A DNA stretch of 48,626 nt from Rhodobacterales bacterium RIFCSPHIGHO2_02_FULL_62_130 (lineage in GTDB: Bacteria; Pseudomonadota; Alphaproteobacteria; Rhodobacterales; Rhodobacteraceae), in assembly GCA_001828855.1 (NCBI GenBank), contig MHZT01000002.1, positions 1-48,626 on the forward strand. The letters are read 5' to 3'. The notes under the pieces were generated by a model, which saw only the letters and a list, made by a program, of their open reading frames with translations, searched no databases and was not told the origin of the DNA. The position numbers and the translations under genes were made by a program. Of this stretch, positions 18,997 to 34,592 are shown piece by piece; within the stretch, counting starts at the first letter, position 1; every line of letters starts with the position of its first letter.

Positions 18997-19158
18997 CCAA
19001 CTTGTTCCTCAGTACTGCCTTCCACTCCTCCGAATGGATCTCAACATCAAACCGTGGGATCAAGCATCTAACCATCATGTCCTACATGATGTAGTCTGCG
19101 CCTTACGAGACGCTGATTGAAGTGCTATCTCTGTTATGTGGAAGGTACGGGTCATAGC

Positions 19159-19635: not shown

Positions 19636-19676
19636 TGTCGCGTAGCCCTTAAATGGGGTCATCCTCAATTTGTGTG
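19636..19676. repeat. Left inverted repeat of the ISL3 element
   Basis: Begins TGTCGCGTAGCCC and includes GGGTCATCCTCAATTTGTG. It pairs with 21326-21366 with two mismatches. Confidence 0.8.
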
Positions 19677-19717
19677 TCACGGTCTGACCGAGTTTCACAG
19701 ATTGAAGGGATCAGGCC

Positions 19718-21337
19718 GTGGTATCGAAGAAGCATTGGGCTCCAACCGCCAGCGTCGAGGTTGGTGAGGTCCGCCAGTCTGAGACGGGTGCATGGGTCGT
19801 ATGTGGCAGACTGGCTCCGAATGGCACCTGCCCTGAGTGCGGGACGTCCTCAAGACAACGACATGGTTGGCGGCGCCGGCGGATCGAGGATTTTCCTGCT
19901 CAGGGCCAAGCGGTTTGGATCGAGCTCAGGGTTTGTCGATGGCGATGTTTGAACTCGGATTGCCGCCGCCGCACGTTCTCCGATCGCGAGGGGGCGGTGG
20001 CGACCCCTTATGCGCGCCGGACGTCGCGACAGGCACAACTCTTAGGCCATGTGGCGCACGCCGCTGGCGGCACCCCAGCTGAACGGCTCTTGCGGCGACT
20101 GGGTATCCGGGTCAGTGACGATACTATTCTCCGACAGTTGCTACGCGCAGCTCAAGTTGTTCCACCACGCGCACGGATCATCGGGATCGATGATTGGAGT
20201 TGGCGAAAGTCGCAGAACTACGGGACGATCATCATCGACCTCGAGCGTCGCGCCGTCATCGATGTTCTCGAAGATCGTGATGTCGTCACATGCACCGACT
20301 GGCTAAGGCGTCATCCTGAGGTGGAAGTCATAAGCCGGGATCGCTGCGGTCTCTACGCCCAAGCCGCCCGAAAAGGAGCGCCGCAGGCGGAACAGGTCGC
20401 CGACCGGTTTCATATCGTGCAGAACCTTCGCATGGCAATCGAGGAGCAAATGAACTTGCACGGTCGCGCGACTGGCAGAGCATTGCTCTCCGATGCAGAC
20501 AACATCAGCACAGCTCAGAACCTTCTGAAATCACGTCTTGCCCATCGCAAATCCCGAGAAGAGATTTTCAAGACCATTTCGGTACTTAGGCAGCAAGGGC
20601 TGACGTGCAGCGAGATCGGACGGCGAACGGGGTTTCCCCGGCGTAGCGTCGCGAAATGGCTGCAGTTCGAAACGCCACCTGACCGAAAGCGCGCCGTCCT
20701 CAAGCGCTCCTCCGCATGGTATTTTGAAGAGTACCTGAAGCAACGCTGGGAGAACGGTATTCGCAGCGGCAATGCGCTGCTCCCTTTGATCCAAGAACGT
20801 GGTTATGAGGGCAGCCTGTCAAACTTGCAGCGGCTCTTGGCCGGATGGCGCAGAGCCGAAAAAGAGGAACAGGAGGGACCCACCAAGGAAGATCAGGTCC
20901 TTGCACCGGTCCGGGACCCGGAAACGGGGCACGCGATTTCCCCGGTTATAGCGGCCGCACTCTGCATCAAACCAAGAGGAAAGTTCACCTTGGAACAGGC
21001 GAGAAAAGTCGAAGTTCTCAAGGAAGGCTCGCCTGCCTTCACAACAATGCGGCGCCTCGCCATGCGTTTCAATGGCATCTTGCGTGGTCGAAAAGCAGAC
21101 CCGCTGCCCGCCTGGATCGACGATGCGATCGAAACGGACCTGGCGCCCATCGTGCGGTTCGCCCGAACCTTGAACAGAGACATTGATGCGGTCAGGAATG
21201 CGATCGAAATGGAGTGGAGCAATGGTCAAGCCGAAGGCCAGATCAACCGATTGAAGACCTTGAAGCGCGCGATGTATGGGCGAGCCGGCCCGAACTTGCT
21301 CAGGGCCCGAATGCTTCCTCTGCACCACACAAATTGA
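19718..21337 (+). CDS. tnp: ISL3 family transposase
   Basis: A 539-residue transposase from a GTG preceded by AAGG. The N-terminal zinc finger (CPECGTSSRQRHGW and CLNSDCRRRTF) is typical of ISL3. The DDE residues are likely Asp in GIDDWSWRK, Asp in VISRDRCGLYAQA and Glu in MEWSNGQAEGQINRLK. An inserted helix-turn-helix (LTCSEIGRRTGFPRRSVAKW) lies in the middle. The frame is intact and the stop codon sits inside the right inverted repeat, so the element may still be active. Confidence 0.93.
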   Translation: MVSKKHWAPTASVEVGEVRQSETGAWVVCGRLAPNGTCPECGTSSRQRHGWRRRRIEDFPAQGQAVWIELRVCRWRCLNSDCRRRTFSDREGAVATPYARRTSRQAQLLGHVAHAAGGTPAERLLRRLGIRVSDDTILRQLLRAAQVVPPRARIIGIDDWSWRKSQNYGTIIIDLERRAVIDVLEDRDVVTCTDWLRRHPEVEVISRDRCGLYAQAARKGAPQAEQVADRFHIVQNLRMAIEEQMNLHGRATGRALLSDADNISTAQNLLKSRLAHRKSREEIFKTISVLRQQGLTCSEIGRRTGFPRRSVAKWLQFETPPDRKRAVLKRSSAWYFEEYLKQRWENGIRSGNALLPLIQERGYEGSLSNLQRLLAGWRRAEKEEQEGPTKEDQVLAPVRDPETGHAISPVIAAALCIKPRGKFTLEQARKVEVLKEGSPAFTTMRRLAMRFNGILRGRKADPLPAWIDDAIETDLAPIVRFARTLNRDIDAVRNAIEMEWSNGQAEGQINRLKTLKRAMYGRAGPNLLRARMLPLHHTN

Positions 21338-21477: not shown

Positions 21478-22362
21478 TCATCGGCCGACCGTGAAGGAGG
21501 GTGGGGCCGCCTTGGCTGCCTCTAGGTGCTTTCGCATTATGTTAGCCGCGTAGGTGCGGTCGCCCGCATGCAGCGCATCTAGGATTTCGACATGCTCTTG
21601 GCATGAGCTGTTCAAACGGCCAGTATCGATCAGGGATGCATATTCCAGAAGCCGTCTCAGCCTGTTCTGCTGAGCAACGGCCTGTACGACGAACCCGTTG
21701 CGTGAACAGCCTGCGATAAACAGGTGAAACTCCTCGTCCAGCCGAAACAGTTCGGCTAGGTTGTGCTCCTCGTCGCTCAGGATACGATTGTGGCGAGCGC
21801 GGATCGCCGCAGCACCCGCCGCATCGAAAACGAAGCTCGGCTGTAGTATCGCGCCTGGTTCGATGAGCAGCCGGAAGTCATAGCTCGCGTCGTTGGATTC
21901 TAGCGTGTTTAGCGTCGGTTCGAACTGCCAGCCGTATCCCGGCATCCGCGAGATGATCCCTTCGTCCGACAGAGCCGTTAGGACCCGGGTCAAAGTCATC
22001 TTTCCTAAGTTGTACCGCAACCGGAATGACTTTTCTGAGATCTCCCGCGGAACGCGGCCCTCGAACCAGTCTTTCGCGATCTGCTCCCGAATCTGGTCTT
22101 CATCCTCTAGCGGCAAGTTCTCCAACGTAGTCCGCGCTGAGCCACTGTCGAGCGCTACCTGCATGCCGCGACTGCCCCCGCGAGCCGCCGCGCCAAGACC
22201 GGCAAGCTGAGACAGGGCAGCTCGCACCGGGCTCCGTGACACGCCGAACTGCGACGAAAGCTCCACTTCCCTGAGGGGGTCGCCCAGTTTCAGCGTACCG
22301 TCCACAATCAGCTCAAGCACCTGGCGGACCAGCCTCAGTTGCAGGTCGCTCTTGGCCTCCAT
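21478..22362 (-). CDS. GntR-family regulator with two winged helices and FCD domain
   Basis: A 294-residue regulator. Residues 10-70 form a GntR winged helix (GDPLREVELSSQFGVSRSP), and residues 88-148 form a second one (RLRYNLGKMTLTRVLTALSD, then MPGYGWQF). Residues 155-285 are a FCD-type all-helical ligand domain (RLLIEPGAI, LDEEFHLFIAG, SCQEHVEILDALHAGD, IMRKHLEAA). Normal FadR-type regulators have only one winged helix. It is the last gene downstream of the dimethylformamidase-like genes on the same strand, with a 44-bp gap. It most likely binds the twin palindromes at 28998 and 34460 and answers to a substrate or product of the pathway; that link is inference. Confidence 0.88.
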   Translation of the reverse strand: MEAKSDLQLRLVRQVLELIVDGTLKLGDPLREVELSSQFGVSRSPVRAALSQLAGLGAAARGGSRGMQVALDSGSARTTLENLPLEDEDQIREQIAKDWFEGRVPREISEKSFRLRYNLGKMTLTRVLTALSDEGIISRMPGYGWQFEPTLNTLESNDASYDFRLLIEPGAILQPSFVFDAAGAAAIRARHNRILSDEEHNLAELFRLDEEFHLFIAGCSRNGFVVQAVAQQNRLRRLLEYASLIDTGRLNSSCQEHVEILDALHAGDRTYAANIMRKHLEAAKAAPPSFTVGR

Positions 22363-22406
22363 CGTTACATCCTGATGATTGTGTCGCGGCGTCGGGCTAC
22401 TCTCTG

Positions 22407-24644
22407 TCAGGTTTGTTTGTCCACTGGAATCTCAAAACGAACTGGATCGTTGAATCGGCGCAAGACGTTTGCCGTGATTGCGGCAATCTCATTGTGGTAG
22501 CCGTTCCAGGCCATAGAACCCGCCCAAGCGATCGAGCCGGTCGAGAACACTGCCCCGCCTCCCTCCGTCTCGAAGAAGGTGAGGTCGGCGCGGATGATCT
22601 CGGCCTGAGTTCCCGACCATTCGGGCGTCGGGTCAAGAAGATCCTCCGGCGTCATCAGGTATATGTCCGTATGCCGGACCGACGATGCCACGACCAACGC
22701 ATGAGCGGGCGTTCCCTGCGTAGCATCCGCCCGGTCGACTTCCAGTCCCGCCGCGCCCCCGCCGGCAAGGCCGAAGGCACCGATGCTCGTACCACAGTCC
22801 ACTCCTTCGAAGATGAAGGCTGCGCGCGGGTTGGATGCGCTTGGGGTCAGCATGTATGGCTCCGAGATGTCGAACCCCTGCGAAGTCATCCCGACGCCGC
22901 ACAACGCGTTCGGCGGCCGACCGTTGCGACGCCAGAGCCCGCCGTACTCGCCCGTGAAGGCATGGAAGAACTGGCCGTGACCGGGCTCCCACGGTCGGAT
23001 GCCGGCTTCCGACCTCCGGCACTCCATGATACCCGGCATGTCCTCGTTGAAACTGACCACCCAGTAGAACCCGTTCCCCCCCAGATACATCAGTCGCCCG
23101 CCACGGTCAGTGAAGCCCTGAAGCGCCTCGATCATCTGGCGCGTGTGGTACTCCGGATGGGTGCCGGTAATCACCACATTGTAGCGCTGGAGAAGTCGCA
23201 GGCCCTCTGCATGCAGATCCTCGTCCGTAATGACGTCATAGTCCTGGTCAATAAAGTCGAGCCAACCCAGGATGTGCGTATCCGCATTGAACTGCCAGAC
23301 GTTTGATCCGAACCCGCCTAGGAATGACTTGACCTTCGGCTGAAGGTCGACGATCGGACGCAGGCGCGAACTGTGGAAGACGCCGCTGCCGTCCCCGTGC
23401 ACTTCGTAGACCGAAAACCCGATGCCAGGGTTGGATTGCAGAAATATGTGGTGACGGTCCATTTCAACCACGCGACCCATCCCGATCTCAGTTCCCGGCA
23501 CGTCCATCCCCAGTCGGTGGTTGGCATAGGCCAAGTAGGAACAGGTTGGAAAGAGAAAGGCTACCGAGTTACCTGTGAGCCGATCTCGTGGGGGGCGCAG
23601 CGCAAAGACGCAGTAGTACGCATCCTCTTCAATCCCGTCCGGGATAAGCCTAATGGCGTAGACTCCGCTTTTCAGGTCTCCGGGCAGCGCAACGCTGAAA
23701 TCGACTTCCCAGCCTGCATCGTAGAGGTCAGTCGAATGGAAATGGATAGCCGAATAGAGATCAGGCCGCTTTTTCCAATCAAGTTCCTGACCGCGCCATT
23801 GCCAACCTGTCATTGCACGGGCCGGGGCGTTGTGGATGCGCCCGTGCAGTTGGAACGGCGAGACGTCGTAGATAACTTCAGTCGTCATGCGGCGCGAGAA
23901 ATCCCAGGCCGCGCGCAGGCCCGGATGACGTGACTGGGGCTCGAAATCCATCAGCAGCGCCCGGACCGTCGCATGGGGCAGGGCAGTCGCGAAAAGGGCA
24001 GGGCGGTCGATCTTGCCGTCGAAGAACGCGACCGGCTGGCCGTCGGCACCTCGGTTGGCCGCGATCAGAACCTCGTCAGCCGCACACGCGGCCAAGACCG
24101 CCTTGCCGCGAACGACCGAGGCCTTCATGGAGCCGCCCGATGAGGTGCTGTCGCATTCCATCGACAGTACCAAATCGCCCGCTTCCGATGCGGCAAAGGT
24201 CACGACTTGCCACGTATTTACCCTGGCGGGAATCTCAGCCTCAAGACGGACACCAAAGGCTTCCCCGAAGATCCTGCCCGACGGCTCGATCCCGATGCGT
24301 GCAAAGCCCGGCAAGGCGATCACGCAGCGCTCTCGCCCGTCAAGGAGCGTGGGATAAATGGCTGCGGCCAATGTGAAGGCGCTCAGGTCCGCCAGCATTC
24401 CCTGACCGGGAATGATCACGCAGGAACCGGGATGGAACCCCTTCGCCACAGCATTGCGAACTCCCCCCAGATCGAGGGCGATCGGCTCGTCGCGGTAACC
24501 CGGCCCCTCGGGATTGGTGTCGCCCTGGATGATCCGACGAAGGTCGGCGACATACTGGCGCGCACCGAAGGCGCCGACCATGACGGAAATGGACTCACCT
24601 GCTGCGACAGTTAGCTTATCGGTGTATGCAACGATCGGAAGCAT
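22407..24644 (-). CDS. dmfA2: N,N-dimethylformamidase-like amidohydrolase, large subunit
   Basis: A 745-residue protein matching the beta (large) subunit of N,N-dimethylformamidase. Residues 60-250 form a LamG/concanavalin-like domain ending AAWDFSRRM. The catalytic part follows (NSVAFLFPTCSYLAYANHR, NPGIGFSVYEVHGDG, VVITGTHPEYHT, YLGGNGFYW). The known enzyme has a mononuclear iron held by two Tyr and one Glu; here Tyr373, Tyr413 and Glu498 (in HPEY) have similar spacing and are the best candidates. The reaction is amide hydrolysis to an amine and a carboxylate. It lies 10 bp after its small subunit. GAGG precedes the ATG at 24644. The true substrate need not be dimethylformamide. Confidence 0.85.
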   Translation of the reverse strand: MLPIVAYTDKLTVAAGESISVMVGAFGARQYVADLRRIIQGDTNPEGPGYRDEPIALDLGGVRNAVAKGFHPGSCVIIPGQGMLADLSAFTLAAAIYPTLLDGRERCVIALPGFARIGIEPSGRIFGEAFGVRLEAEIPARVNTWQVVTFAASEAGDLVLSMECDSTSSGGSMKASVVRGKAVLAACAADEVLIAANRGADGQPVAFFDGKIDRPALFATALPHATVRALLMDFEPQSRHPGLRAAWDFSRRMTTEVIYDVSPFQLHGRIHNAPARAMTGWQWRGQELDWKKRPDLYSAIHFHSTDLYDAGWEVDFSVALPGDLKSGVYAIRLIPDGIEEDAYYCVFALRPPRDRLTGNSVAFLFPTCSYLAYANHRLGMDVPGTEIGMGRVVEMDRHHIFLQSNPGIGFSVYEVHGDGSGVFHSSRLRPIVDLQPKVKSFLGGFGSNVWQFNADTHILGWLDFIDQDYDVITDEDLHAEGLRLLQRYNVVITGTHPEYHTRQMIEALQGFTDRGGRLMYLGGNGFYWVVSFNEDMPGIMECRRSEAGIRPWEPGHGQFFHAFTGEYGGLWRRNGRPPNALCGVGMTSQGFDISEPYMLTPSASNPRAAFIFEGVDCGTSIGAFGLAGGGAAGLEVDRADATQGTPAHALVVASSVRHTDIYLMTPEDLLDPTPEWSGTQAEIIRADLTFFETEGGGAVFSTGSIAWAGSMAWNGYHNEIAAITANVLRRFNDPVRFEIPVDKQT

Positions 24645-24654
24645 CACTTGGTCC

Positions 24655-24996
24655 TCATGCTTGCGAAAGGGCTTTGTCGAGGTCCTCTCCCGTCAGATCT
24701 CGCCAGCGGCGACGGAACACGTCTCGCTCGGCCTCGATCAAGTCGGTGTAGATGATATCGTCGACCAGCTCGACCGGCACTCCACGCTCCAGGGGCAGGC
24801 GTCCCAGCCGCCATCTTCCGTGACGATCCTCGACGACGAGCACGTACTTGTAGCGATCTCCGGTTGCATCGGCGATACCGGATCCTCGCATCACGTTCAG
24901 CACGCGTTGCAATCCGGGGCTGTGATAACCAATGGGATCGGCAAGGAACTCCCGCGCGAATGGAAGATCGGATGTGTCGATGCGGTAGCGGCTCAT
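24655..24996 (-). CDS. dmfA1: N,N-dimethylformamidase-like small subunit
   Basis: A 113-residue protein, a little shorter than the roughly 130-residue alpha subunit of dimethylformamidase. Shared features are the FLADPIGYHSPGLQRVLNVMR segment (compare the NPFGYRKHPSPYLQRV pattern of the known subunit), the RYKYVLVVEDRHGRWRLGRL strand pair and the terminal AERDVFRRRWRDL helix. The small subunit packs on the large one in an alpha2-beta2 or larger assembly and is needed for activity. It follows potD by 55 bp, with a hairpin between, so amidase and transporter genes form one unit. Confidence 0.78.
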   Translation of the reverse strand: MSRYRIDTSDLPFAREFLADPIGYHSPGLQRVLNVMRGSGIADATGDRYKYVLVVEDRHGRWRLGRLPLERGVPVELVDDIIYTDLIEAERDVFRRRWRDLTGEDLDKALSQA

Positions 24997-25017
24997 CTTT
25001 GTCCCCTAATAACGGAC

Positions 25018-25033
25018 GGGGCGACGCCGCCCC
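25018..25033 (-). other. Hairpin between potD-like and dmfA1-like genes
   Basis: A perfect 6-bp stem GGGGCG/CGCCCC with a four-base loop lies in the 55-bp gap. Without a T-run it more likely tunes mRNA stability, giving more binding protein than enzyme, than ends transcription. Confidence 0.4.
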
Positions 25034-25051
25034 GCCACCCGCCTCTTCAGA

Positions 25052-26092
25052 TCAATTGGTCTTGATCCGGTCCCAGGCCTTCGTGTACAGCCGCAGGTCC
25101 TTTCCCAGGTCCTCGAAAATCTGCAGCTTGGCGCGCACTTCTGCGGGAGGATTGATCGACGGGTTGCTCCGCAGGTTTTCCGGAAGGAGGTCGAGTGCCG
25201 CCGTATTTACTGTCCCGTTGGTCAAGCGCTCGGCATTCTTGGCAGCGCTCTCCGGCCGCATCATGAACTGCATGAAGAGCTTGGCATTCTCGACGTTTGG
25301 GGCGGAGGCCAGCATGCAGATGTCTTCCTGGTACATCGTCGCACCTTCTGCAGGGATTACGTAGCCGAGGTTTTCGGGGTCCTGCAGAACATTCAGCACG
25401 GCACCTACGTAGTAGTGGCCTGCCGCGATGTCACCCGAGGTCACCAGCGGGATCACATCGTAGCGAAAGGCGCCGATGTTCGGTACCTGTTCGGCGATGA
25501 AGGCCTCAGCCTTGGCGATCTCATCAGGATTGCGCGAGTTGACTGACGACCCGGTCATGATCAGTCCGACGCCGAGCGTTTCGCGCAGGTCGTCAAGCAT
25601 CGTCACTTTCCCGGGGTTCGCATTTGCATAGGCGAAAAACTCATCCCAGCTCTTCAACTCCGGGATCAGCTTCTTGTTGTAGAAGATGCCGACCGCGCCC
25701 CAGGCATAGGGCATGCAGTAATCGCCGTTGGGGTCGGCCTGCGACCGCAGGGCGGCCGGATCGATATTCTCCCAGCCCGGCATCTGGTTGGGATTGGCCG
25801 GCTGCAAAAGGCCCAGCTGCTGCATGATGTCGTGCATGTGGACCGACGGCCAGACCAGGTCGTAGCCTGCGGCGCCTGCCTGAATGCGGGCAAGCATCTC
25901 CTCGTTGGTCGAATATGTGTCCAGCGTCACCTCGACTCCGAATTCCTTGCTGAATGCGTCGATCAGCTCCGGGTTGATATAATCGCCCCAGTTGTAGAGG
26001 TTCAGCTTGCCTTCCGCGGCTGCCCCTTGACTCATCAGCGCAAGCATCGCGGCCGAGCCGAGTGTCCGAATAGCCTTCGATGTCAGTGTCAT
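25052..26092 (-). CDS. PotD/PotF-like periplasmic substrate-binding protein
   Basis: About 346 residues. A classic signal peptide (MTLTSKAIRTLGSAAMLALM, cleaved after GAAA) is followed by KLNLYNWGDYINPELIDAFS, the hallmark start of polyamine-type binding proteins, and by YDLVWPSVHMHDIMQQLGLL, DYCMPYAWGAVGIFYN and SGDIAAGHYYVGA. It should capture the solute in the periplasm for the PotBC permease. The ATG at 26092 has GGGAGAG in front; an ATG at 26125 overlaps the potC stop and would add 11 residues. Family members bind polyamines and other cationic or amide solutes, so specificity cannot be read from sequence. Confidence 0.88.
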   Translation of the reverse strand: MTLTSKAIRTLGSAAMLALMSQGAAAEGKLNLYNWGDYINPELIDAFSKEFGVEVTLDTYSTNEEMLARIQAGAAGYDLVWPSVHMHDIMQQLGLLQPANPNQMPGWENIDPAALRSQADPNGDYCMPYAWGAVGIFYNKKLIPELKSWDEFFAYANANPGKVTMLDDLRETLGVGLIMTGSSVNSRNPDEIAKAEAFIAEQVPNIGAFRYDVIPLVTSGDIAAGHYYVGAVLNVLQDPENLGYVIPAEGATMYQEDICMLASAPNVENAKLFMQFMMRPESAAKNAERLTNGTVNTAALDLLPENLRSNPSINPPAEVRAKLQIFEDLGKDLRLYTKAWDRIKTN

Positions 26093-26121
26093 GCAGGTCT
26101 CTCCCGTGTTGGTGTTGGTTT

Positions 26122-26958
26122 TCATGGTTTGCGATTGCGCAGGATCAGGCCGATGCTGGCGACGATCAGCGAGAACAGCAGGATCAAGACGGCAAGTGCC
26201 GTGATCTGCGGCCGCAGGCCCCGCCGCATCATCGCCAAGATGAACAGTGGCAGTGTTTGCGAGCCGACGCCCGCGATGAAGTAGGTGATCACCACGTCGT
26301 CGAGCGAGATGATGAAGGCCAGAAGGAAACCGCCCACCACGCCTGGCATAATCTGCGGCAGCGTCACGCGCCGGAACGTTGTGAGCGGTCCGGCACCCAG
26401 ATCGGCCGAGGCCTGCTCCAACGTGGTGTCCATGCCCGCCAGCCGTGCCGACACGACGACGAAGACATAGCTTGATAGAAAGGTCACATGGCCAATGATG
26501 ATTGTCATCAGGCCAAGCTCGATCCCGACGCCGACGAAAAAGATCAGCAGGGCGATCCCCAGCACGATGTCCGGGACAAGCATCGGCAGCAACAGCAACG
26601 CCTGATAGAACCGCTTGCCGAAGAACTTGTGCCGCGCAAGCGCAAGCGCCGTCGCAGTGCCGATCACCGTCGCCGCACTAGCCGCCGACAGGGCGACGAC
26701 AAAGCTGGTCCGGATCACGTCGAAGATGCGCTCGGGCGATTCCGTAAAGGCGGCATCGAAGTTGCCCTCGACGCTCGCTCCCTGAAAGATCGTAGCATAC
26801 CAGTCCAGCGTGAAGCCGGTCCATTCGGCGACGTTGATCGGGTTGGCGTTGAACGAGAAGGCGACGATCAAGCCCAGCGGCAGGTAAAGGAAGACGAGGA
26901 AGAGGACCCCGTAACCCTTCAGCAAAGCCGACCACAACATCTGGCGCTTGTTCTTCAT
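26122..26958 (-). CDS. PotC-like ABC transporter permease
   Basis: A 278-residue inner-membrane permease with about six membrane segments, starting MKNKRQMLWSALLKGYGVLF. The EAA loop that contacts the ATPase reads EQASADLGAGPLTTFRRVTL. The ATG overlaps the TGA of the potB-like gene, giving tight coupling. It pairs with that permease to form the transport channel. The true start is 26958, not the long upstream extension in the same frame, which overlaps potB. Confidence 0.9.
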   Translation of the reverse strand: MKNKRQMLWSALLKGYGVLFLVFLYLPLGLIVAFSFNANPINVAEWTGFTLDWYATIFQGASVEGNFDAAFTESPERIFDVIRTSFVVALSAASAATVIGTATALALARHKFFGKRFYQALLLLPMLVPDIVLGIALLIFFVGVGIELGLMTIIIGHVTFLSSYVFVVVSARLAGMDTTLEQASADLGAGPLTTFRRVTLPQIMPGVVGGFLLAFIISLDDVVITYFIAGVGSQTLPLFILAMMRRGLRPQITALAVLILLFSLIVASIGLILRNRKP

Positions 26959-27860
26959 GCTGGTCTCCCGCCCTTTGCGCGACCGGCTTTGACGGTCTGG
27001 ATCATCAGCACCACGACGACCGATGCCATGATCAGCAGTGCCAACGCCGAGCCGAATGGCCAGTCCCGCGACTGAAGGAAGGAGCGCTCGATGAGGTTGC
27101 CGGTCATCTGGACCTTTGCCCCACCCAGAAGAGAGGGCACGATGAAGTTTCCAAGGGCAGGGATGAATACGATGATCGAACCCGCGACCATCCCGGGTGC
27201 AGTCAGCGGCAGAATGACACGCAGAAAGGTCTGGATTGGGCTTGCCCCGAGGTCCTGCGACGCCCGCACCAGCGAGAAGTCGAGCTTTTCCACGTTCGCG
27301 TAGATCGGAAGGAACATGAACGGCGTGAAGATGTAGACCATGCCCAGAACCACTGCCGTGCCCGAGAACAGCAGATCGAGCGGTTGGGAAATGATTCCTG
27401 CAGCTTCCAGCGCCGTGTTCACAAAGCCGGTCGGTCGTAGAAGCAGCAGCCACGCATAAATCCGAATGAGCAGGCTGGCGAAGAAGGGCAAGGTGATCAG
27501 GAAAAGGACGAACCCCTTCCAGCGTTCGCTTCTGCGGCTAACCCAGAACGCCGCCGGGTAGCAGATCAGCAGCGAGAACACGACCGTCATCAAGGCATAT
27601 TTCAGCGACGTGGCGAATATCTTCAGGTAGATCGGGTCGAATTCCTCATAATCGTTTAGCGGCCATCCCAGAATGCGACCGTAATTATAGGGATACCAGG
27701 TCCACTCCACGCCCCCGTAAAGTCCCGGCTCCAGAAAGCTGTAGACAACGACGATTCCCAGCGGGATCAAAAAGAATATCCCCAGAATGATCGAGATGGG
27801 CGCGAGCAGTAGGAGAAGCGCGTTCCGCTTCCGCGCCGCCATGAAACGATCGCCCGCCAT
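26955..27860 (-). CDS. PotB-like ABC transporter permease
   Basis: A 301-residue inner-membrane permease with about six membrane segments (first: NALLLLLAPISIILGIFFLI). The EAA loop reads VRASQDLGASPIQTFLRVIL. It starts one base after the potA-like stop codon and overlaps potC by 4 bp. It has the long first periplasmic loop (YGGVEWTWYPYNYGRILGWP) typical of PotB. Together with PotC it forms the channel for the imported amine or amide. Confidence 0.9.
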   Translation of the reverse strand: MAGDRFMAARKRNALLLLLAPISIILGIFFLIPLGIVVVYSFLEPGLYGGVEWTWYPYNYGRILGWPLNDYEEFDPIYLKIFATSLKYALMTVVFSLLICYPAAFWVSRRSERWKGFVLFLITLPFFASLLIRIYAWLLLLRPTGFVNTALEAAGIISQPLDLLFSGTAVVLGMVYIFTPFMFLPIYANVEKLDFSLVRASQDLGASPIQTFLRVILPLTAPGMVAGSIIVFIPALGNFIVPSLLGGAKVQMTGNLIERSFLQSRDWPFGSALALLIMASVVVVLMIQTVKAGRAKGGRPA

Positions 27861-27861
27861 G

Positions 27862-28968
27862 TCAAGCGCTCCGCATCGGAATCAGGTGGCCGGACGCCGC
27901 CGAGTAGCCGATGCGGACCTCGGCACCCGGAGCGATGTCGCTGGACCCGCGCCGGGTATGCGGATGCGAAACAAGCGCTGTACGTCCGTGCCCGATGTCG
28001 GCGTGGACCTGCATTGTCGAGCCCACGAAGACTGTCTCCCTGACCCGGCCTTCGATTGCCGGAACGTCGGCATCGCCCGTTTCGTCCCGGGCCAGGATCG
28101 TCAGATGTTCGGGCCGCAGAACAAGCCTTACCTGGTCACCGACCCGAAACGCCGTGCTGGTTGCCGCCAGCCGCCGCCCGTTCCCAGTCTCCAGGATCAC
28201 CCGGTCGCCGCTTATGGACGCGACGGTGCCCGCGAACATGTTCGACGTCCCGACAAAATTCGCAACGAATTCGTTTGCAGGCTTGTCGTAAACCTCGGTC
28301 GGGGTATCCAGTTGCTGAAGCCGTCCCTGCGCAAGCACCGCAATTCGGTCGGACATCGCAAGCGCTTCTTCCTGATCGTGCGTTACGAAGACGAATGTGA
28401 TCCCCACGGCATGCTGCAGGTTCTTTAGCTCGATCTGCATGGTCTCGCGCATCTTTCGGTCCAGCGCCGACAGAGGCTCGTCTAGGAGAAGGACCTTCGG
28501 CTTCAAGACCAGCGACCGGGCAAGTGCGACGCGTTGTTGCTGGCCACCCGACAGTTGCGTCGGACGTCGTCCTCCAAACCCCGAGAGCCCCACCAAGTCC
28601 AGCGCCTCGCCCGCGCGGCGGTCACGCTCGACCTTAGATACACCAGCCACTTCCATCCCATAGGCCACGTTCTGTTCGACCGTCATGTGCGGGAACAGTG
28701 CATAATTCTGAAAGACCGTGTTGAACGGCCGCTTGTGCGGTGGCACGCTCCGCAGACTTTTGCTGTCCAGGATTAGATCACCACCGTCCAAATCCTCGAA
28801 ACCAGCAATGCACTTCAACAAGGTGGTCTTGCCGCAACCGGACGGACCTAGCAGCGTGAGAAATTCATTGTTCCTTATGTTGATAGTAACATCGTCAAGT
28901 GCCTGAACCGATGAGCCTTCGGGTGTCTGGTACACTTTGCGGGCAGAAAGGATCTGCAGGAACCCCAT
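27862..28968 (-). CDS. PotA-like ABC transporter ATPase
   Basis: A 368-residue ATPase. Walker A is GPSGCGKTT (41-49), the signature LSGGQQQR, Walker B VLLLDEPLSALD, and the H-loop VTHDQEEAL. The last 120 residues form a TOBE regulatory domain (VRLVLRPEHL). It is the first gene of the potA-B-C-D-dmfA1-dmfA2 unit, reading away from the palindrome at 28998. GGGGAGCG precedes the ATG at 28968 (MGFLQILSARKV); longer in-frame starts run into the divergent peptidase gene and are rejected. Confidence 0.92.
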   Translation of the reverse strand: MGFLQILSARKVYQTPEGSSVQALDDVTINIRNNEFLTLLGPSGCGKTTLLKCIAGFEDLDGGDLILDSKSLRSVPPHKRPFNTVFQNYALFPHMTVEQNVAYGMEVAGVSKVERDRRAGEALDLVGLSGFGGRRPTQLSGGQQQRVALARSLVLKPKVLLLDEPLSALDRKMRETMQIELKNLQHAVGITFVFVTHDQEEALAMSDRIAVLAQGRLQQLDTPTEVYDKPANEFVANFVGTSNMFAGTVASISGDRVILETGNGRRLAATSTAFRVGDQVRLVLRPEHLTILARDETGDADVPAIEGRVRETVFVGSTMQVHADIGHGRTALVSHPHTRRGSSDIAPGAEVRIGYSAASGHLIPMRSA

Positions 28969-28997
28969 ATGGTCAACGCTCCCCGATGAGTCGTTCT

Positions 28998-29022
28998 TGT
29001 TTTTTGCTATAATCAAAATACA
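28998..29022. promoter_or_regulatory. Operator A, GntR-type palindrome
   Basis: A 25-bp palindrome TGTTTTTTGC-N6-CAAAATACA between the divergent potA-like and S58 peptidase genes. Its centre on the plus strand is TATAAT, so it overlaps a likely -10 box. The two arms are identical to those of operator B at 34460. Confidence 0.7.
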
Positions 29023-29085
29023 TAAGATCCGGAGTCTGGCAAGAAGTTTAGCGAACTCACGCCAAGCAAGTGAAGGAATGCCGAA

Positions 29086-30168
29086 ATGATGCGCAAACGT
29101 GCTCGCGAACTGGGCTGGAAGTTGACAGGAAGGACGGGGCCATCGAACGCAATAACCGATGTTGCAGGAGTTCTGGTGGGCATGACGACGCTCCTTCAGC
29201 CCGAAGGAAAAGTGCGAACCGGCGTTACCGCGATCTTGCCGTTCGGCCACAATCCCGTGCCACAGATTGCCCACGCCGGTCTGCATGTTCTGAACGGAAA
29301 CGGCGAAATGACCGGGGCGCACTGGATCAGGGACGCCGGACATTTCCTGGGCCCGATCTGCATCACCAACACTCATGCCGTCGGAACGGCGCACCACGCC
29401 GCGACTAGGTGGATCGTTTCGCACTACGGCGAGGCATTCCGTGACAATCACCTCTGGGCCATGCCGGTCATCGCCGAAACATACGACGGCGTTTTGAATG
29501 ATATCAACGGCTTCCACGTTTCGGCCGACCACGTTCTTTCGGCAATCACCGGCGCACGCGGAGGCCCTGTGACGGAAGGCAACTCTGGCGGCGGGACCGG
29601 AATGATCTGCTACGAGTTCAAGGGTGGCACCGGCACATCGTCGCGCCTAGTTCGGATCGGCGACCGTGAGCTCACCTTCGGGGTCCTTGTCCAGGCCAAC
29701 CACGGCAGACGGGAATGGCTTACAATCCTTGGCGAACCCGTGGGCACAATTCTGACCGAGGATGCGTTTCTGGGTCAGGAACGCGGATCGATCATCGTCA
29801 TCGTCGCCACCGATGCGCCCCTGCGGCCAGACCAGCTTTCCAGACTTGCACGCCGCGCCGCAATCGGGATCAGCCGGTCCGGAACGCCGGGAGGCAACAG
29901 CTCAGGCGACATCTTCCTCGCCTTTAGCACGGCGAACGGACGGCCGTTGCCGCAGTTCGATACCACCGTTCAGACATTCCGGCACCTGAATGACGAACAA
30001 ATGGACCCGGCATACGAAGCCGTAGTGCAGGCCACTGACGAGGCGATCCTGAACGCGATGCTGGCGGCAGAGCCGCTGACCTCGATAAAGCCTGCCGGGC
30101 TCGTCTGCCGCGCGCTCGACGGTCCTGCCGTTACCGAAGTCCTGCGCCGGGCTGGAAAAGCTGACTGA
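29086..30168 (+). CDS. P1/S58 family aminopeptidase (DmpA/BapA-like)
   Basis: A 360-residue hydrolase of the N-terminal-nucleophile class. The family's self-cleavage and catalytic region is visible as GGNSSGDIFLAFST, with Ser273 before GD as probable nucleophile; the N-terminal GPSNAITDVAGVLVGM and the EGNSGGGTGM segments are also typical. Known members are L-aminopeptidase/D-amidase or beta-peptidyl aminopeptidases that open unusual amide bonds. It has no signal peptide. It is divergent from potA and shares operator A, so it probably hydrolyses an amide bond in the imported solute or an intermediate. GAAGGA lies 7 bases before the ATG. Confidence 0.88.
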   Translation: MMRKRARELGWKLTGRTGPSNAITDVAGVLVGMTTLLQPEGKVRTGVTAILPFGHNPVPQIAHAGLHVLNGNGEMTGAHWIRDAGHFLGPICITNTHAVGTAHHAATRWIVSHYGEAFRDNHLWAMPVIAETYDGVLNDINGFHVSADHVLSAITGARGGPVTEGNSGGGTGMICYEFKGGTGTSSRLVRIGDRELTFGVLVQANHGRREWLTILGEPVGTILTEDAFLGQERGSIIVIVATDAPLRPDQLSRLARRAAIGISRSGTPGGNSSGDIFLAFSTANGRPLPQFDTTVQTFRHLNDEQMDPAYEAVVQATDEAILNAMLAAEPLTSIKPAGLVCRALDGPAVTEVLRRAGKAD

Positions 30169-30192
30169 TCCGGGCTGGCCCGACGCGCCTCT

Positions 30193-31587
30193 TCAATCCG
30201 GCTGTGTCCTGAAATGGTAGGACTTCAGTCGCGTCAGGTGAGCGTAGGCATGCGTTGACAGCGAACACCCACGCCCGGTGTCCTTGACGCCAGTCCAGGC
30301 AAGGCCCGGATCAAGGTAGTCGCAACGATTGGCAAAGCATGTCCCAGTTTCCATCCGACGCGAGATTGTCTCGGCAACCGCAAGGTCCCTCGTCCAGATG
30401 GAGGTGGTCAGGCCATACCGGCTTTCGTTCATCAGCCGCACCGCCTCGTCGTCGCTGTCCACCGCCATGATACCGACTACAGGGCCAAAACTCTCTTCCG
30501 TCATCACCCGCATCCCGTGCGTCACGTCGACCAGAACTTGCGGCGCGAGATAGGGCGTACCCTCTTTGCTCGCCGGAAAGTCGGCTGGCGCGATTAGTGC
30601 CCGCGCACCTTGTGCTACGGCGTCGGTGATCTGGCCCCGCACGAAGTCCGCTGCCTTCGTGCTGACAACCGGGCCCAGCGTCACATTCGGGTCGGTCGGA
30701 TTGCCCAGCCGATAGGCCCTGACAATAGCGACCACTTTGGCGACGAAATCCTCATAGACAGCCTTGTGCACGTAGACGCGTTCGATCCCGCAGCATGACT
30801 GACCGGAATTGAAGAACGCCCCATCCACGATCTGCTCTGCCGCGAAGGCGACATTCGCATCGGCGCGGACATAGGCCGGATCTTTTCCGCCAAGTTCCAG
30901 ATCAATGCCGCTGAAACTTCCCGCGTTTGCCTTCTGCAAGTCACGCCCGACCTCAACCGAGCCGGTGAAGACGGCATGATCGTGATGCGCCTCCCCGATC
31001 AGCCGGGTGGTGTCGCCGTTGGTCGTCATCAGCAACTGGAAGACCCCCTCCGGCATCCCGGCTGCGGCAAAGGCCGCTGCAAACCGCTCTCCGCAAAGCA
31101 GCGTCTGTGCCGAATGCTTCAAGATCACTGCGTTCCCCGCAGCAAGGGCCGGGAAGATCGCATTCGTCGCGGTCAGCAGCGGAAAGTTCCAGGGCGCGAT
31201 CACCAGGACGGTTCCTAGCGCCTCACGACGGATCGTCCTAAGCGCCAGGCCGTTCAGTGGAAGTTCATCCTGGGCCAGCGCCTGTCGCGCGATGCCAAGC
31301 ATATAGCGCGCGCGCTCCTCCAGCCCCCTAATTTCCCCCACCGCCTGCGAGACCGGGCGACCCATCTGCCAGGAGATCTCAAGCGCGATCGCGTCCTGGT
31401 GCGCGACGAAATAGTCCACTGCCCTGCCGAGCATCGCGGTCCTTTCCGCAAGCGGTATCGTTTCCCAGCCAGCCTGCGCGGCTTTGGCCCGGGCAAAACT
31501 CTCCCGTCCTTGTTCGAGGGACATCGCGGTCCGCTCTACATGGACGCTACCGTCGACAGGGGACACGCATTGGATGATGGCATTCAT
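30193..31587 (-). CDS. NAD(P)-dependent aldehyde dehydrogenase
   Basis: A 464-residue ALDH-superfamily enzyme. Catalytic Cys265 is in FFNSGQSCC, the general base Glu231 in LELGGKDP, and the oxyanion Asn in APWNFP. It would oxidise an amino- or amido-aldehyde from the aminotransferase to the acid, as PuuC does in the putrescine pathway; overall it resembles succinate-semialdehyde-type enzymes. The ATG at 31587 (MNAIIQCVSP) has GGAG in front. It is the last gene of the aminotransferase-GS-ALDH unit, convergent with the S58 gene with a 24-bp gap. Confidence 0.9.
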   Translation of the reverse strand: MNAIIQCVSPVDGSVHVERTAMSLEQGRESFARAKAAQAGWETIPLAERTAMLGRAVDYFVAHQDAIALEISWQMGRPVSQAVGEIRGLEERARYMLGIARQALAQDELPLNGLALRTIRREALGTVLVIAPWNFPLLTATNAIFPALAAGNAVILKHSAQTLLCGERFAAAFAAAGMPEGVFQLLMTTNGDTTRLIGEAHHDHAVFTGSVEVGRDLQKANAGSFSGIDLELGGKDPAYVRADANVAFAAEQIVDGAFFNSGQSCCGIERVYVHKAVYEDFVAKVVAIVRAYRLGNPTDPNVTLGPVVSTKAADFVRGQITDAVAQGARALIAPADFPASKEGTPYLAPQVLVDVTHGMRVMTEESFGPVVGIMAVDSDDEAVRLMNESRYGLTTSIWTRDLAVAETISRRMETGTCFANRCDYLDPGLAWTGVKDTGRGCSLSTHAYAHLTRLKSYHFRTQPD

Positions 31588-31622
31588 TCGTCGCTCCAGT
31601 TTGCTTAGTCCTGCCACTTCGG

Positions 31623-32996
31623 TCAGAGGATCTCGAAATAGCGCTTCAGCTCCCAATCCGTGACCGCACGGGCGTATTGGCGTGCCTCGAACAGGCGGGA
31701 GTCCGAGAAGTGGCGCACGAAGGCCGGGCCGAATAGATCGATGGCCGCCTCGGACTGCTGAAGCAGTACAGCCGACGTCTCCAAGTTTCCAGGCAGGCGC
31801 CGAGATTCGGGGATGTCCTGGGCGTAGGCGTTTCCGACGGACCTTGCTCCTGGATCGATGCCTCGCTCGATCCCCAGAAGCCCCGATCCGATCGCGGCGG
31901 CCATTGACAAGTAGGGGTTCACGTCAGATCCCGGAACACGGTACTCTAGCCTCTGCGACTTAGGCGAGCCGGGGATGACCCTGATCCCGACGGTCCGGTT
32001 GTCGATGCCCCAGGTCGCTGCCGTCGGCGCCCAGTAGCCGGGCGTCAGGCGCGAATAGCTGTTGATGTTCGGCGCAACCATCGCGGCGAACTCACGTAAG
32101 TAGGCAAGCTGCCCGCCGAGGAAAAGCCGCATCGTCTCGCTCATCCCGTCGGGCGCCGCGGGGTCGTGGAACAGAGGCAGGCCTGCTGTCGACCAAAGCG
32201 ACATATGTGTGTGGCCGCTCTGACCCGAAAGGGTCTCGTTCCATTTCGCCATGAAGGTCGCCATCAAGCCCCGCTTCTGGGCCAGTACCTTCATGAACGC
32301 CTTGAAGATCGAGGCTTTGTCGGCCATCGCCATCGCCTCGTCCACAGCGATGGCGGTTTCCACCACGCCCGGGCCGGTTTCGGCGTGCAGACCTTCCAGC
32401 GAAATGCCGATGGATCCGAAAGTGTCCAGGATTTCCTGATAGAGCCCCTCCTGCACCATCGACCGAAGAAGGGAATAACTGAAACTTCCCGGAGACAGCG
32501 TCTGGAGATCCCGGAAATCCTTCGCCTTCAGCGTGTCTGGGGTCTCTTGGAACATAAAGAACTCGAACTCCATCGCCGCACGGACCGAAAAGCCCATGCT
32601 TTCTGCCCGCGCCAGCACGCGGCGCAGAACGCCCCTCGGGCAGATGGCTTCGGCCGTGCCGGCGAACTCGCTCGCGAAGAACAGCGTCTCGTTTTCGAAC
32701 GGCAGGACCATCGCGCTTTTGGGCAGAATCCGCAGGGTCACGTCTGGATATCCACTGTGCCAACCGGTAAAGACCGAATTGTCATAAAGGGTGTCGCTGA
32801 CGTCCCAGCCCAGCAGGGCGTTGCAGAACCCGAAACCGTCATCGAGCGCCGACAGGAACTTGTCGCGGGCGATGTACTTGCCGCGCAGCACACCGTCCAC
32901 GTCGAAGACCCCCACCTTCACATGGGCCGGATTACGTTCCCTCACCAGCGCGCGGGCTTCCTCGATGGTCGAGACGTTCAGCTTCTCTCCCGGCAT
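31623..32996 (-). CDS. Type III glutamine synthetase, gamma-glutamyl-polyamine synthetase-like
   Basis: A 457-residue glutamine-synthetase fold enzyme of the PuuA/GlnA3 group. Segments include VGVFDVDGVLRGKYI near residue 30, the metal ligands in AAMEFEFFMF, HAETGPGVVE, the SGHTHMSLW loop, and NRTVGIRVIP with LEYRVPGSDVNPYL. The N-terminus is shorter than in ammonia-assimilating GlnA, and there is no adenylylation loop Tyr motif. Members join glutamate to an amine with ATP, protecting the amine before oxidation. Flanking ALDH and aminotransferase genes fit a gamma-glutamylation route for an amine released by the amidases. GGAG precedes the ATG. Confidence 0.85.
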   Translation of the reverse strand: MPGEKLNVSTIEEARALVRERNPAHVKVGVFDVDGVLRGKYIARDKFLSALDDGFGFCNALLGWDVSDTLYDNSVFTGWHSGYPDVTLRILPKSAMVLPFENETLFFASEFAGTAEAICPRGVLRRVLARAESMGFSVRAAMEFEFFMFQETPDTLKAKDFRDLQTLSPGSFSYSLLRSMVQEGLYQEILDTFGSIGISLEGLHAETGPGVVETAIAVDEAMAMADKASIFKAFMKVLAQKRGLMATFMAKWNETLSGQSGHTHMSLWSTAGLPLFHDPAAPDGMSETMRLFLGGQLAYLREFAAMVAPNINSYSRLTPGYWAPTAATWGIDNRTVGIRVIPGSPKSQRLEYRVPGSDVNPYLSMAAAIGSGLLGIERGIDPGARSVGNAYAQDIPESRRLPGNLETSAVLLQQSEAAIDLFGPAFVRHFSDSRLFEARQYARAVTDWELKRYFEIL

Positions 32997-33030
32997 TCGG
33001 GCACTCCATCAGACATAAATCGGAGGCGTT

Positions 33031-33050
33031 CCCCGGCTGTCACGCCGGGG
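33031..33050 (-). other. Hairpin between aminotransferase and GS-like genes
   Basis: A perfect 7-bp stem CCCCGGC/GCCGGGG with a six-base loop in the 78-bp gap. No T-run; probable mRNA stability or partial termination element. Confidence 0.4.
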
Positions 33051-33074
33051 CTCGGGCAGTCCGCGGCAGCTTGG

Positions 33075-34445
33075 TCAGAGACCGACTTCGGCGAACACTT
33101 CGGTCATGGTGTCGGCAAGAATGGCGAACATCCGGTCCATTTCCACCTCGGTCATCACGAAGGGGGGGCCAAGGACGATGGCCTGGCCAAGTGGACGGCA
33201 AATCAAGCCTTTCTCCAGCGCCTTGTTCGCGATCCGCTCTGAAATCTGGTACGACCCGTCCAGCGCAACCTTCGTCGCCTTGTCGGCCACCAGCTCCACC
33301 GCGCCCATGAAGCCAACGCCCCGAGCTTCGCCGGCATACTTGTGCTCGCCCAGCTGGCGAAGTCCCGACATGAAACGCCCACTCAGCCGGTTCACGTTCT
33401 CCAAGAGCCCCTCGGTTTCAAGCACCTCCAGCGCCTTCAGCGCGACCGCACTGCCCAGCGGGTTACCCCCTGCAGTAAAACCGTGCGGGAATTCCTCGGC
33501 CTTCTCGGACACAGCAGTCAGTGCAGCGCAGAGATCGGGGCCGAGAAGCACCGCGCCCATCGGGAAGTAGCCTGCCGTAATGCATTTCGAGGCGACGATG
33601 GCGTCGGGTTGGACATTGTACTTGTCGCTGCCCCACATCGCTCCGGTCCTGCCGAAGCCGGTGATTACCTCGTCCGCAATCAGCGGGATGCCATACTTGC
33701 GCAGGATCGGACGAATGGCCTCGAAGTAGCCTTCTGAGGGCGGTATCACCCCACCGGCACCCTGGACCGGCTCGGCGAACATGCCAGCGATGGTGTCGGG
33801 GCCCTCCTTGATGATCAACTCTTCCAGATTGCGCGCCAGCCGTTGCGAGAACTCTATCTCCGTCTCGCCGGCGCGTCCAAACCGCCAGAAGTGCGGGCAG
33901 TCTGCGTGCAGGAAGCCCGGAAGCGGCAGGCCGAACTCCGCGTTGTAGGCCTTGCCAGTCATGGAGGCGGTCGCGACAGTCACGCCGTGGTAAGCGTTCA
34001 CGCGCGAGATGATCTTGCGACGTTGCGGCTGGCCGTTGCGGCGATGCAGCATCCACAGCATCTTGACGACGGTGTCGTTCGCTTCCGAGCCGGAGTTGGT
34101 GTAGTAGACCTTGCCGCTTGGGAATGGCGAAATCTCGATCAGCTTTTCCGACAGAGCGACGGTCGTGTCCGCGATACGACCGAAGAAAGCATGGTAGCCG
34201 GGAAACCTTCGCGCCTGATCGCAAAGGGCTTCGATTATCCCCCGGTGGTTGAAGCCCGCGACGTTGTTCCACAGGCCCGAGTTGGCATCCATGTAGCTCT
34301 TTCCGTGAACATCGAAGACATGAATTCCCTCGCCATGCGTTAGCACCACCGGGCCATTGCGATTCAGAGTATCAAGGTCGGTGAACCCGTGGAACACGTT
34401 GTGCATGTCGCGCTGTTCCCAGGAATTGCTAGTCTGATCCTTCAT
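33075..34445 (-). CDS. Class III PLP-dependent aminotransferase (SpuC-like)
   Basis: A 456-residue aminotransferase. PLP-lysine Lys287 lies in DAIVASKCITAGYFPMGA, Asp258 in ADEVITGFGRTG, and the phosphate loop in NSGSEANDTV. The WNNVAGF and YHAFFGR segments and the MKDQTSNSWEQRD N-terminus fit the omega-amino acid and polyamine:pyruvate group. It would turn a primary amine into an aldehyde for the ALDH. It is the first gene of its unit and has GGAG before the ATG at 34445. Operator B lies 15 bp upstream. Whether the donor is free or gamma-glutamylated amine is open. Confidence 0.88.
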   Translation of the reverse strand: MKDQTSNSWEQRDMHNVFHGFTDLDTLNRNGPVVLTHGEGIHVFDVHGKSYMDANSGLWNNVAGFNHRGIIEALCDQARRFPGYHAFFGRIADTTVALSEKLIEISPFPSGKVYYTNSGSEANDTVVKMLWMLHRRNGQPQRRKIISRVNAYHGVTVATASMTGKAYNAEFGLPLPGFLHADCPHFWRFGRAGETEIEFSQRLARNLEELIIKEGPDTIAGMFAEPVQGAGGVIPPSEGYFEAIRPILRKYGIPLIADEVITGFGRTGAMWGSDKYNVQPDAIVASKCITAGYFPMGAVLLGPDLCAALTAVSEKAEEFPHGFTAGGNPLGSAVALKALEVLETEGLLENVNRLSGRFMSGLRQLGEHKYAGEARGVGFMGAVELVADKATKVALDGSYQISERIANKALEKGLICRPLGQAIVLGPPFVMTEVEMDRMFAILADTMTEVFAEVGL

Positions 34446-34459
34446 CTTGGGCTCCGGTA

Positions 34460-34484
34460 TGTTTTTTGCATCATGCAAAATACA
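34460..34484. promoter_or_regulatory. Operator B, GntR-type palindrome
   Basis: A 25-bp palindrome TGTTTTTTGC-N6-CAAAATACA, 15 bp before the aminotransferase ATG. Arms identical to operator A; only the six central bases differ (ATCATG here, TATAAT there). Confidence 0.7.
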
Positions 34485-34592
34485 TCCCACGCGAGGAGGA
34501 GTCGGTCAAGATGAAAGTTTTCAAGCGCGCAGGTACTCGCAGGCCCATCCGACACGCGCGATACAGCTACACTTAATAGAGTGTACAGGCCG

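Follow-up and report, generated by a model that had tools for sequence, protein, structure and literature searches.

Bacterial polyamine catabolism has been described as five routes (PMC9397018, PMC8998196) and, as far as the accessible parts of these two papers show, none of the five includes a deacylase of the N,N-dimethylformamidase (DMFase) family. According to the accessible part of PMC8998196, acetylspermidine may undergo no further metabolism. The DMFase-family enzymes with solved structures are one that acts on a man-made solvent and an acylase for an N-acetyl amino acid; these two stand against at least 574 confirmed relatives in a single genome scan, which leaves room for natural roles. 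Here we analysed a 48,626-nt stretch of DNA (hereafter the window) from Rhodobacterales bacterium RIFCSPHIGHO2_02_FULL_62_130 (contig MHZT01000002.1, positions 1 to 48,626). It contains an island, at 21478-34445, that joins genes for a GntR-type regulator, a two-subunit iron amidohydrolase (A1/A2), a PotABCD-type importer, a DmpA-type S58 amidase, an aldehyde dehydrogenase (ALDH), a glutamine synthetase (GS)-like ligase and a class III aminotransferase (AT). In our reading, the island is a plasmid-borne catabolic regulon, under GntR control, for the use of a cationic amide taken up from outside; the amide is most likely a diamine or short polyamine bearing N-acyl or aminoacyl groups. We give this reading about an even chance of being correct. 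It is based on the AT, PotD and DmpA neighbourhood shared within one A2 clade, the complete set of A2 catalytic residues, the acids retained in all 17 binding proteins compared and the pairing of operator with regulator.

Searches for open reading frames (ORFs) and protein families located every gene that the sequence-only reading had named, and at the place it had given. Its right-hand limit, 34484, needs correcting: it falls inside the second of two operators, and the AT probably starts at 34445. The first operator lies within the island (28998-29023) and the second immediately upstream of the AT gene, the last of the island (34460-34485). The features are as follows.

21478-22362, minus strand: GntR/FCD regulator (PF00392 and PF07729), candidate owner of the shared operator
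22407-24647, minus strand: A2, large subunit of the DMFase-family iron amidohydrolase (PF20254, DMFA2_C)
24655-24996, minus strand: A1, small subunit; without a Pfam family, matched to 6lvb_B by a profile of seven homologues
25052-26092, minus strand: PotD-like binding protein with an altered pocket signature; start picked from a GGGAG ribosome site
26122-26958, minus strand: PotC-like permease (PF00528); 210 bits with the PotC model, under its cut-off of 326
26955-27860, minus strand: PotB-like permease (PF00528)
27862-28968, minus strand: PotA-like ATPase (TIGR01187, 394 bits, over the cut-off); likely start internal to a longer ORF
28998-29023, no strand: palindromic operator in the PotA/DmpA divergent promoter, located by motif scoring
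29086-30168, plus strand: DmpA-type S58 amidase/aminopeptidase (PF03576; top solved relative 1b65, 410 bits)
30193-31587, minus strand: ALDH (PF00171)
31623-32996, minus strand: predicted GS-like gamma-glutamyl-amine ligase (PF00120; ammonium-site changes N264 to S and E327 to W)
33075-34445, minus strand: class III AT, predicted pyruvate type (PF00202; 4grx, 655 bits; 4e3q, 649 bits)
34460-34485, no strand: palindromic operator in the AT promoter, located by motif scoring

Given this gene order, there should be three transcription units: AT-GS-ALDH and PotA-PotB-PotC-PotD-A1-A2-GntR on the minus strand, and DmpA on the plus strand, divergent from PotA.

To place A2 among its relatives, we assembled a tree of 118 A2 proteins, including 8huy and, in part, 6lvb. 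Of 79 plasmid records that matched A2, seven were fetched (loci L005-L008 and three more distant ones), and genome contigs scanned with an eight-protein A2 alignment supplied the best 80 of at least 574 loci; close relatives are over-represented as a result. The whole-genome loci L096-L121, with flanks of about 1.5 kb, entered the tree but not the neighbourhood counts. The window's A2 fell in a single clade of 19 with support of 0.997, together with four plasmid loci, 13 scan loci and L141. Near A2, members of this clade carried AT in 18 of 19 cases, PotD in 13, DmpA in 12, a GntR homologue in 11, GS in six and ALDH in four. The corresponding counts outside the clade were 1, 0, 1, 0, 0 and 1 of 63, the seven of 70 loci whose flanks fell short of 5 kb on both sides having been excluded. 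The score cut-offs behind these counts were chosen by us after the hits were known and the loci are related, so that the Fisher values are descriptive; weaker AT-like matches also occur in several loci outside the clade. The sequence-only reading would have been refuted by a lack of co-occurrence in other genomes, which is not what we see. Its outline of import, amide hydrolysis and amine removal likewise stands as one regulated, conserved island, except that gamma-glutamylation is only an add-on to it: amidohydrolase and aminotransferase are a near-constant pair, and GS and ALDH are the add-ons.

Plasmids of Pseudorhizobium flavum (L005) and Rhodobacteraceae bacterium M382 (L006) carry closely similar gene sets, and in M382 the AT, FGase (an N-formylglutamate-amidohydrolase relative), GS and ALDH genes stand in consecutive order. 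Partial sets were found in Rhizobium CB3171 (L007) and on plasmid pBVIE01 of Burkholderia vietnamiensis (L008). A sample of 394 genomes from the window's family contained 33 with an A2 match at E 1e-100 or better; four of the 394, counting the window's own, had one of at least 69% identity. Six of the 19 clade loci have no Pot set of this kind, and three of these (L007, L008 and L017) carry an amino-acid-type permease. The cluster is also present in Chelativorans multitrophicus DSM 9103 (L013), a degrader of ethylenediaminetetraacetate, and might be tied there to ethylenediamine handling; GS was not seen in the fetched stretch of this strain. Ruegeria spongiae also carries the cluster, with GS and without a DmpA match. 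At L141, a chromosomal copy, a gene of the D-alanyl-D-alanine carboxypeptidase family (S11; positions 7633-9135 of that locus) adjoins DmpA in the place of AT.

The A2 protein contains the DMFA2_C domain (PF20254; E 3.3e-85, 287 bits against a Pfam cut-off of 27). Among solved proteins the best score was obtained with 8huy (452 bits, aligned over residues 2-733), the N-acetyl-(R)-beta-phenylalanine acylase from a Burkholderia; the DMFase 6lvb scored 416 bits, aligned over residues 174-732 plus a short N-terminal piece. The adjoining A1 gene encodes a protein whose profile, built from seven homologues, matches the DMFase small subunit 6lvb_B (E 5.9e-13). Residue roles and numbering for the A2 family were taken from the accessible part of PMC7686228, which gives the iron ligands and the catalytic Glu657 and Asn547. 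The iron ligands Y399, Y440 and E521 and the catalytic E657 were retained in 118 of 118 aligned A2 sequences and N547 in 117 of them, with 6lvb and 8huy among the aligned rows. The window's A2 has all five, that is, two Tyr and one Glu as iron ligands plus the catalytic Glu and Asn. By domain, iron-site residues and paired small subunit, A1A2 is predicted to be a DMFase-family iron amidohydrolase.

Neither solved enzyme belongs to the island's A2 clade. The DMFase 6lvb, entered in the tree minus its unaligned middle, lies in another supported clade (0.994), and 8huy groups with L100 and L106 (support 0.988); the island's clade is therefore a third one, in which the full iron site is kept. The earlier description of the enzyme as dimethylformamidase-like thus holds for the family but not for the clade, as its score is nearer to 8huy and the tree groups it with neither. 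The same genome encodes two more large subunits of the DMFase family (G000:C48:253072-255306 and G000:C51:561-1835), of which the C48 protein lies outside the island's clade.

Use of N,N-dimethylformamide (DMF) or a related formamide, as in Paracoccus DMF strains, would be in keeping with the family membership, the identical iron site and the related small subunit. We nevertheless consider it highly improbable. The DMFase itself sits in a different supported clade; a binding protein with amine-holding acids should not be needed for DMF; and by established chemistry dimethylamine is not a substrate of class III aminotransferases. Further, the island's regulator is of the GntR type whereas DmfR of pAMI2 is of the LuxR type, and the related dmfA1-dmfA2 pair of pAMI5 is likewise not linked to DMF use, according to the accessible part of PMC4543880. 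Formamides, which the sequence-only reading had named first among substrates to be tested, are in our view the least likely ones.

We then compared the PotD-like protein with 16 others, for a total of 17 binding proteins: 13 from A2-clade loci (L014-L016 being without a DmpA match) and four stand-alone ones. The roles of the PotD pocket residues, with acids holding the amine and a tryptophan cage around it, are those that we take to apply in PotD, and their positions were located by motif in 7xjm. The acids E36 (or D), D168 and E171 were retained in 17 of 17 proteins. By contrast with PotD, seven other pocket residues, Y85, S211, W229, W255, M256, D257 and Y293, were replaced by H, Y, Y/F, Y, Q, E and N, respectively, in all 17; at W229 the replacement is Y in 14 and F in three. 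In the window's protein W229, W255 and D257 are Y, Y and E, so that the tryptophan cage of PotD and PotF is not present. Accordingly, the polyamine-type import proposed earlier is upheld by the amine-holding acids but not by the aromatic cage, which is replaced. The full signature was found in none of the six other Pot-type binding proteins of the genome, in which single changes do occur: W229 is kept in six of six, and W255 and D257 in five of six each (L183 being a weak, 41-bit match). On the simplest reading, importers bearing the signature would share a single ligand class, an amine other than plain putrescine or spermidine.

The S58 protein has a Peptidase_S58 domain (369 bits). Its nearest solved relative is 1b65 (410 bits), which we take to be DmpA, and the beta-peptidyl aminopeptidase 3n2w scored 262 bits. 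These relatives bring in a beta-amino-acid route, with A1A2 as an N-acyl-beta-amino-acid acylase, DmpA as a beta-peptidyl aminopeptidase and the AT stripping the beta-amino group. The N-acetyl-(R)-beta-phenylalanine acylase as top solved relative of A2, aligned over nearly its whole length, and the presence of 3n2w among the DmpA relatives are both in line with such a route. So is a CoA-acylating methylmalonate-semialdehyde dehydrogenase gene near L006 and L023, which would suit beta-alanine as an end product; under the main reading, this gene and a succinate-semialdehyde dehydrogenase gene near L023 weakly fit beta-alanine and gamma-aminobutyrate (GABA) as end products. However, the acylase 8huy is outside the A2 clade, the S58 protein is closer to DmpA than to the beta-peptidyl aminopeptidase, and an amine would be a better match for both the Pot acids and the GS/ALDH add-on. 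Overall, we regard the beta-amino-acid route as unlikely.

Pot and DmpA genes also occur together beside an RpiR-type regulator gene and without A1A2, in the same genome (contig C27, L144) and on plasmids of Thioclava, Aminobacter and Shinella. Across 149 genomes of the family there were 20 further S58 relatives at E 1e-60 or better, eight of which had PotC- and PotB-like genes of the island's type within about 1.5 kb. The second PotDABC-DmpA set of the window's genome (L144, G000:C27:44000-57000, at 3459-9313) has sulfatase-family and TRAP permease genes among its neighbours. The third S58/DmpA-type gene of the genome (G000:C51:68421-69464, L173) has no such Pot permease gene within 1.5 kb. 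In P. pantotrophus (L150), the ABC transporter genes beside the S58 gene include one for a longer binding protein.

The operator motif, TGTATTTTG-N6/7-CAAAATACA, is present at both the PotA/DmpA and the AT promoters of the window. The two sites are 26-nt imperfect palindromes that are 81% identical. The shared operators proposed earlier are thus found at these two promoters, but no shared operator is seen at A1 or GS in the window (promoter-window scores of 8 and 11 of 18). The best promoter-window score was 14-17 of 18 in all 11 clade loci having a GntR homologue and 9-13 of 18 in all eight without one. As operator and GntR homologue co-occur across the clade, GntR is the candidate owner of the operator. 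At L020, L022 and L025 an RpiR-type regulator gene replaces GntR, as assigned by family match for L020 and via clustering for the other two. In a shuffled-motif control, two of 300 shuffles matched the observed score sum over ten loci excluding the window; by our own arithmetic its letters can be arranged in 252 distinct ways, so the real motif can recur among the shuffles. The operator test is not blind, since the half-site was defined after hits in these same loci had been viewed, and whole loci, once shuffled, gave maxima of up to 15, which makes L007 and L013, both at 14, weak cases. A FadR-type operator, TNGTNNNACNA, was rejected, with no site in the island, as were sigma-70 promoters, with three found against 2.7 expected.

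The gene orders and operators bear on a further possibility, that the island holds two loosely coupled systems, Pot and DmpA serving a peptide-like compound of their own and A1A2 and AT another, which are merely co-regulated. The RpiR-Pot-DmpA sets without A1A2 described above would be expected under this proposal, as would a pocket signature that is unchanged with or without A1A2, and seven of the 19 clade loci have no DmpA and six no Pot. On the other side, three gammaproteobacterial metagenome-assembled genomes (MAGs; L020-L022) have PotD-PotA-PotB-PotC-DmpA-AT-A1-A2 all on one strand, and a marine MAG (L025) has PotD-PotA-PotB-PotC-DmpA-AT on one strand with A1-A2 divergent; in the window, L005 and L006, A1-A2 lies downstream of Pot in the same direction. 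In addition, the operator stands at the AT promoter as well as at the PotA promoter with a score of at least 14 in five loci and at least 13 in seven. We therefore think two separate systems somewhat less probable still than the beta-amino-acid route.

The nearest solved relatives of the AT are 4grx (655 bits), presumably from a Paracoccus, and the pyruvate transaminase 4e3q (649 bits), against 329 bits for the putrescine aminotransferase 6gwi. A relative in Paracoccus ferrooxidans, at 61% identity, has uninformative neighbours. Racemase and D-amino acid dehydrogenase genes occur in L005 and L008, a D-amino acid dehydrogenase gene in L007 and an alanine dehydrogenase gene in L006; these alanine-handling genes near four relatives fit a pyruvate-dependent aminotransferase. 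The ALDH belongs to PF00171, and none of the 25 NCBIfam models listed scored over its cut-off.

The GS-like protein scored 170 bits with NF045547, the NCBIfam model for the PuuA gamma-glutamylputrescine synthetase, against a cut-off of 650, and was also far under the NCBIfam cut-off for GlnA. In its ammonium site, N264 is changed to S, as aligned against the genome's GlnA-like L129, and E327 to W, as judged by eye (PGFEAP in L129, PGYWAP here); the D50/S53 region did not align. The accessible part of PMC8998196 names N264 and E327 among the ammonium-site residues and describes changes in this site for GlnA2 and GlnA3. By these replacements, the protein is predicted to be of the broad gamma-glutamyl-amine ligase type; by its NF045547 score it is not assigned to PuuA. 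The two GS relatives at 50-52% identity that were fetched (L147 and L148, of those at 50-55%) both have GS followed by ALDH. Near them lies a gamma-glutamyl-GABA-hydrolase-type gene in L147, under its NCBIfam cut-off, and a class I glutamine amidotransferase (GATase) gene in L148, from B. vietnamiensis, where a histone-deacetylase-type gene is also close to GS-ALDH. Plasmid pBVIE01 of B. vietnamiensis G4 in fact carries A1A2, AT, D-amino acid dehydrogenase and alanine racemase genes at one locus (L008) and the histone-deacetylase-type gene, GS, ALDH and GATase at another (L148), which looks like the proposed route split into two modules.

The genome as a whole has six FGase matches and ten GS-like matches, the island's counted, and GS and FGase genes are adjacent on contigs C51 and C13; an uncapping hydrolase could therefore come from outside the island. 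The C51 pair (L143) is beside an ALDH gene and the C13 pair (L145) beside an aminotransferase-like gene. Such recurring pairs suggest a general GS-FGase amine module with an N-formylglutamate-amidohydrolase relative as its hydrolase. Alternatively, A1A2 might itself be the last-step hydrolase of the gamma-glutamyl pathway and substitute for PuuD, given that GS, AT and ALDH share the island and that no island protein matched the PuuD or FGase families. We judge this improbable: in 13 of the 19 clade loci the fetched stretch shows no GS of this kind (the rest of those genomes was not searched for GS), and M382 and CB3171 hold A1A2 and FGase together.

Some neighbouring genes were considered and set aside. 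Acyl-CoA ligases were rejected as a clue to the acyl group, as an acetate-CoA ligase occurs in L007 only and the ligases at L020 and L021 matched different types. The amidase-signature (AS) amidase of L012 passes the GatA model and was therefore rejected as housekeeping. Genes of the agmatine-deiminase-like (L025, under the NCBIfam cut-off), histone-deacetylase (L015) and decarboxylase (L016) types occur at single loci and therefore carry little weight.

From these observations we infer the reactions, substrate class, repression and inducer of the regulon for a cationic amide. The PotABCD-type importer, with its specialised binding pocket, would take up the amide, and A1A2, plus the DmpA-type amidase where present, would hydrolyse its amide bonds. 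The class III AT would transfer the freed primary amine to pyruvate, yielding an aldehyde and alanine, and the ALDH would oxidise the aldehyde. In loci with the GS-like ligase, an amine group would first be capped as a gamma-glutamyl amide, the cap being removed by an FGase- or PuuD-type hydrolase encoded elsewhere in the genome. GntR probably represses both promoters through the shared operator until substrate or product arrives.

Several points weigh against this reading. With the tryptophan cage lost from the island's binding protein, a common polyamine is not the first ligand to expect. Nor does every S58-plus-ABC locus carry the pocket signature: at L151 of Agrobacterium C58, the binding protein of Pot type close to the S58 gene does not match the window's PotD and is without the signature. 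GS and ALDH, the genes most suggestive of a diamine, occur in a minority of clade loci, DmpA is missing from seven of the 19 fetched loci, and L141 has no AT within its 19.9 kb. At L014 the operator is on the Pot/GntR side only, the AT promoter window scoring 8. The best-scoring solved relative of A2 takes its name from an N-acetyl beta-amino acid rather than from a diamine, and no assay of any enzyme of the island's A2 clade was found in open-licence papers. Finally, no island protein matched the FGase or PuuD families, and a search of open-licence papers yielded no support for FGase as a gamma-glutamyl hydrolase, a role that is our own suggestion.

The island is cargo on a plasmid-type contig of the Tabrizicola type, as its flanks match plasmids. 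Plasmids of Tabrizicola, Neotabrizicola and Fuscovulum cover 97% of the right flank at 89-90% identity, including type IV secretion genes, and 43-55% of the left flank at 89-91% identity, including replication and partition genes. An ISL3-like transposase frame, read by eye without a family search, abuts GntR; it is part of the interval 17782-21337, which separates the island from the plasmid replication block and also has two frames of unassigned role.

More tentatively, the island may represent an undescribed route for acylated or aminoacylated polyamines, in which a new class of Pot binding protein (with a Y-Q-E...N pocket) imports the compound and a new DMFase-family clade deacylates it, feeding an aminotransferase or gamma-glutamyl route. 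No description of the island's gene set was found in open-licence papers, in agreement with the sequence-only reading, which knew of no described pathway with it. If the route is real, acetylpolyamines gain a bacterial fate independent of histone-deacetylase-type enzymes, and part of a family known chiefly from a synthetic solvent gains a natural role. The clade's transporter, regulator, mapped operator and near-constant AT partner make the natural substrate testable. The wider Pot-DmpA import module, with its distinctive pocket, would also give S58 amidases, whose natural substrates are to our knowledge unclear, a transport context.

Compared with DmfA1A2 of Paracoccus (6lvb), the island's enzyme has the same two subunits, PF20254 domain, two-Tyr-one-Glu iron ligands, Glu657 and Asn547, but its A2 is in a separate clade and its regulator, neighbours and probable substrate differ. 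With the acylase 8huy it shares a near full-length A2 alignment, the top solved score and identical catalytic residues, and again differs in clade. The importer is four-component like PotABCD and PotFGHI and keeps E36 (or D), D168 and E171, whereas the seven pocket residues are changed. Like the gamma-glutamylation (Puu/Pau) pathway, the island combines a GS-like ligase, an ALDH and an amine importer, with ammonium-site changes as in GlnA2 and GlnA3 in the accessible part of PMC8998196; unlike it, the island has no identified PuuB- or PuuD-type gene, has an AT and amide hydrolases, and treats GS as optional. The pyruvate-type class III AT and the ALDH recall the aminotransferase pathway (PatA/SpuC) as given in the accessible part of PMC9397018, but the island has an amidase step ahead and its AT is nearer to 4grx and 4e3q than to 6gwi. 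We therefore file the island as amine catabolism with a new front end.

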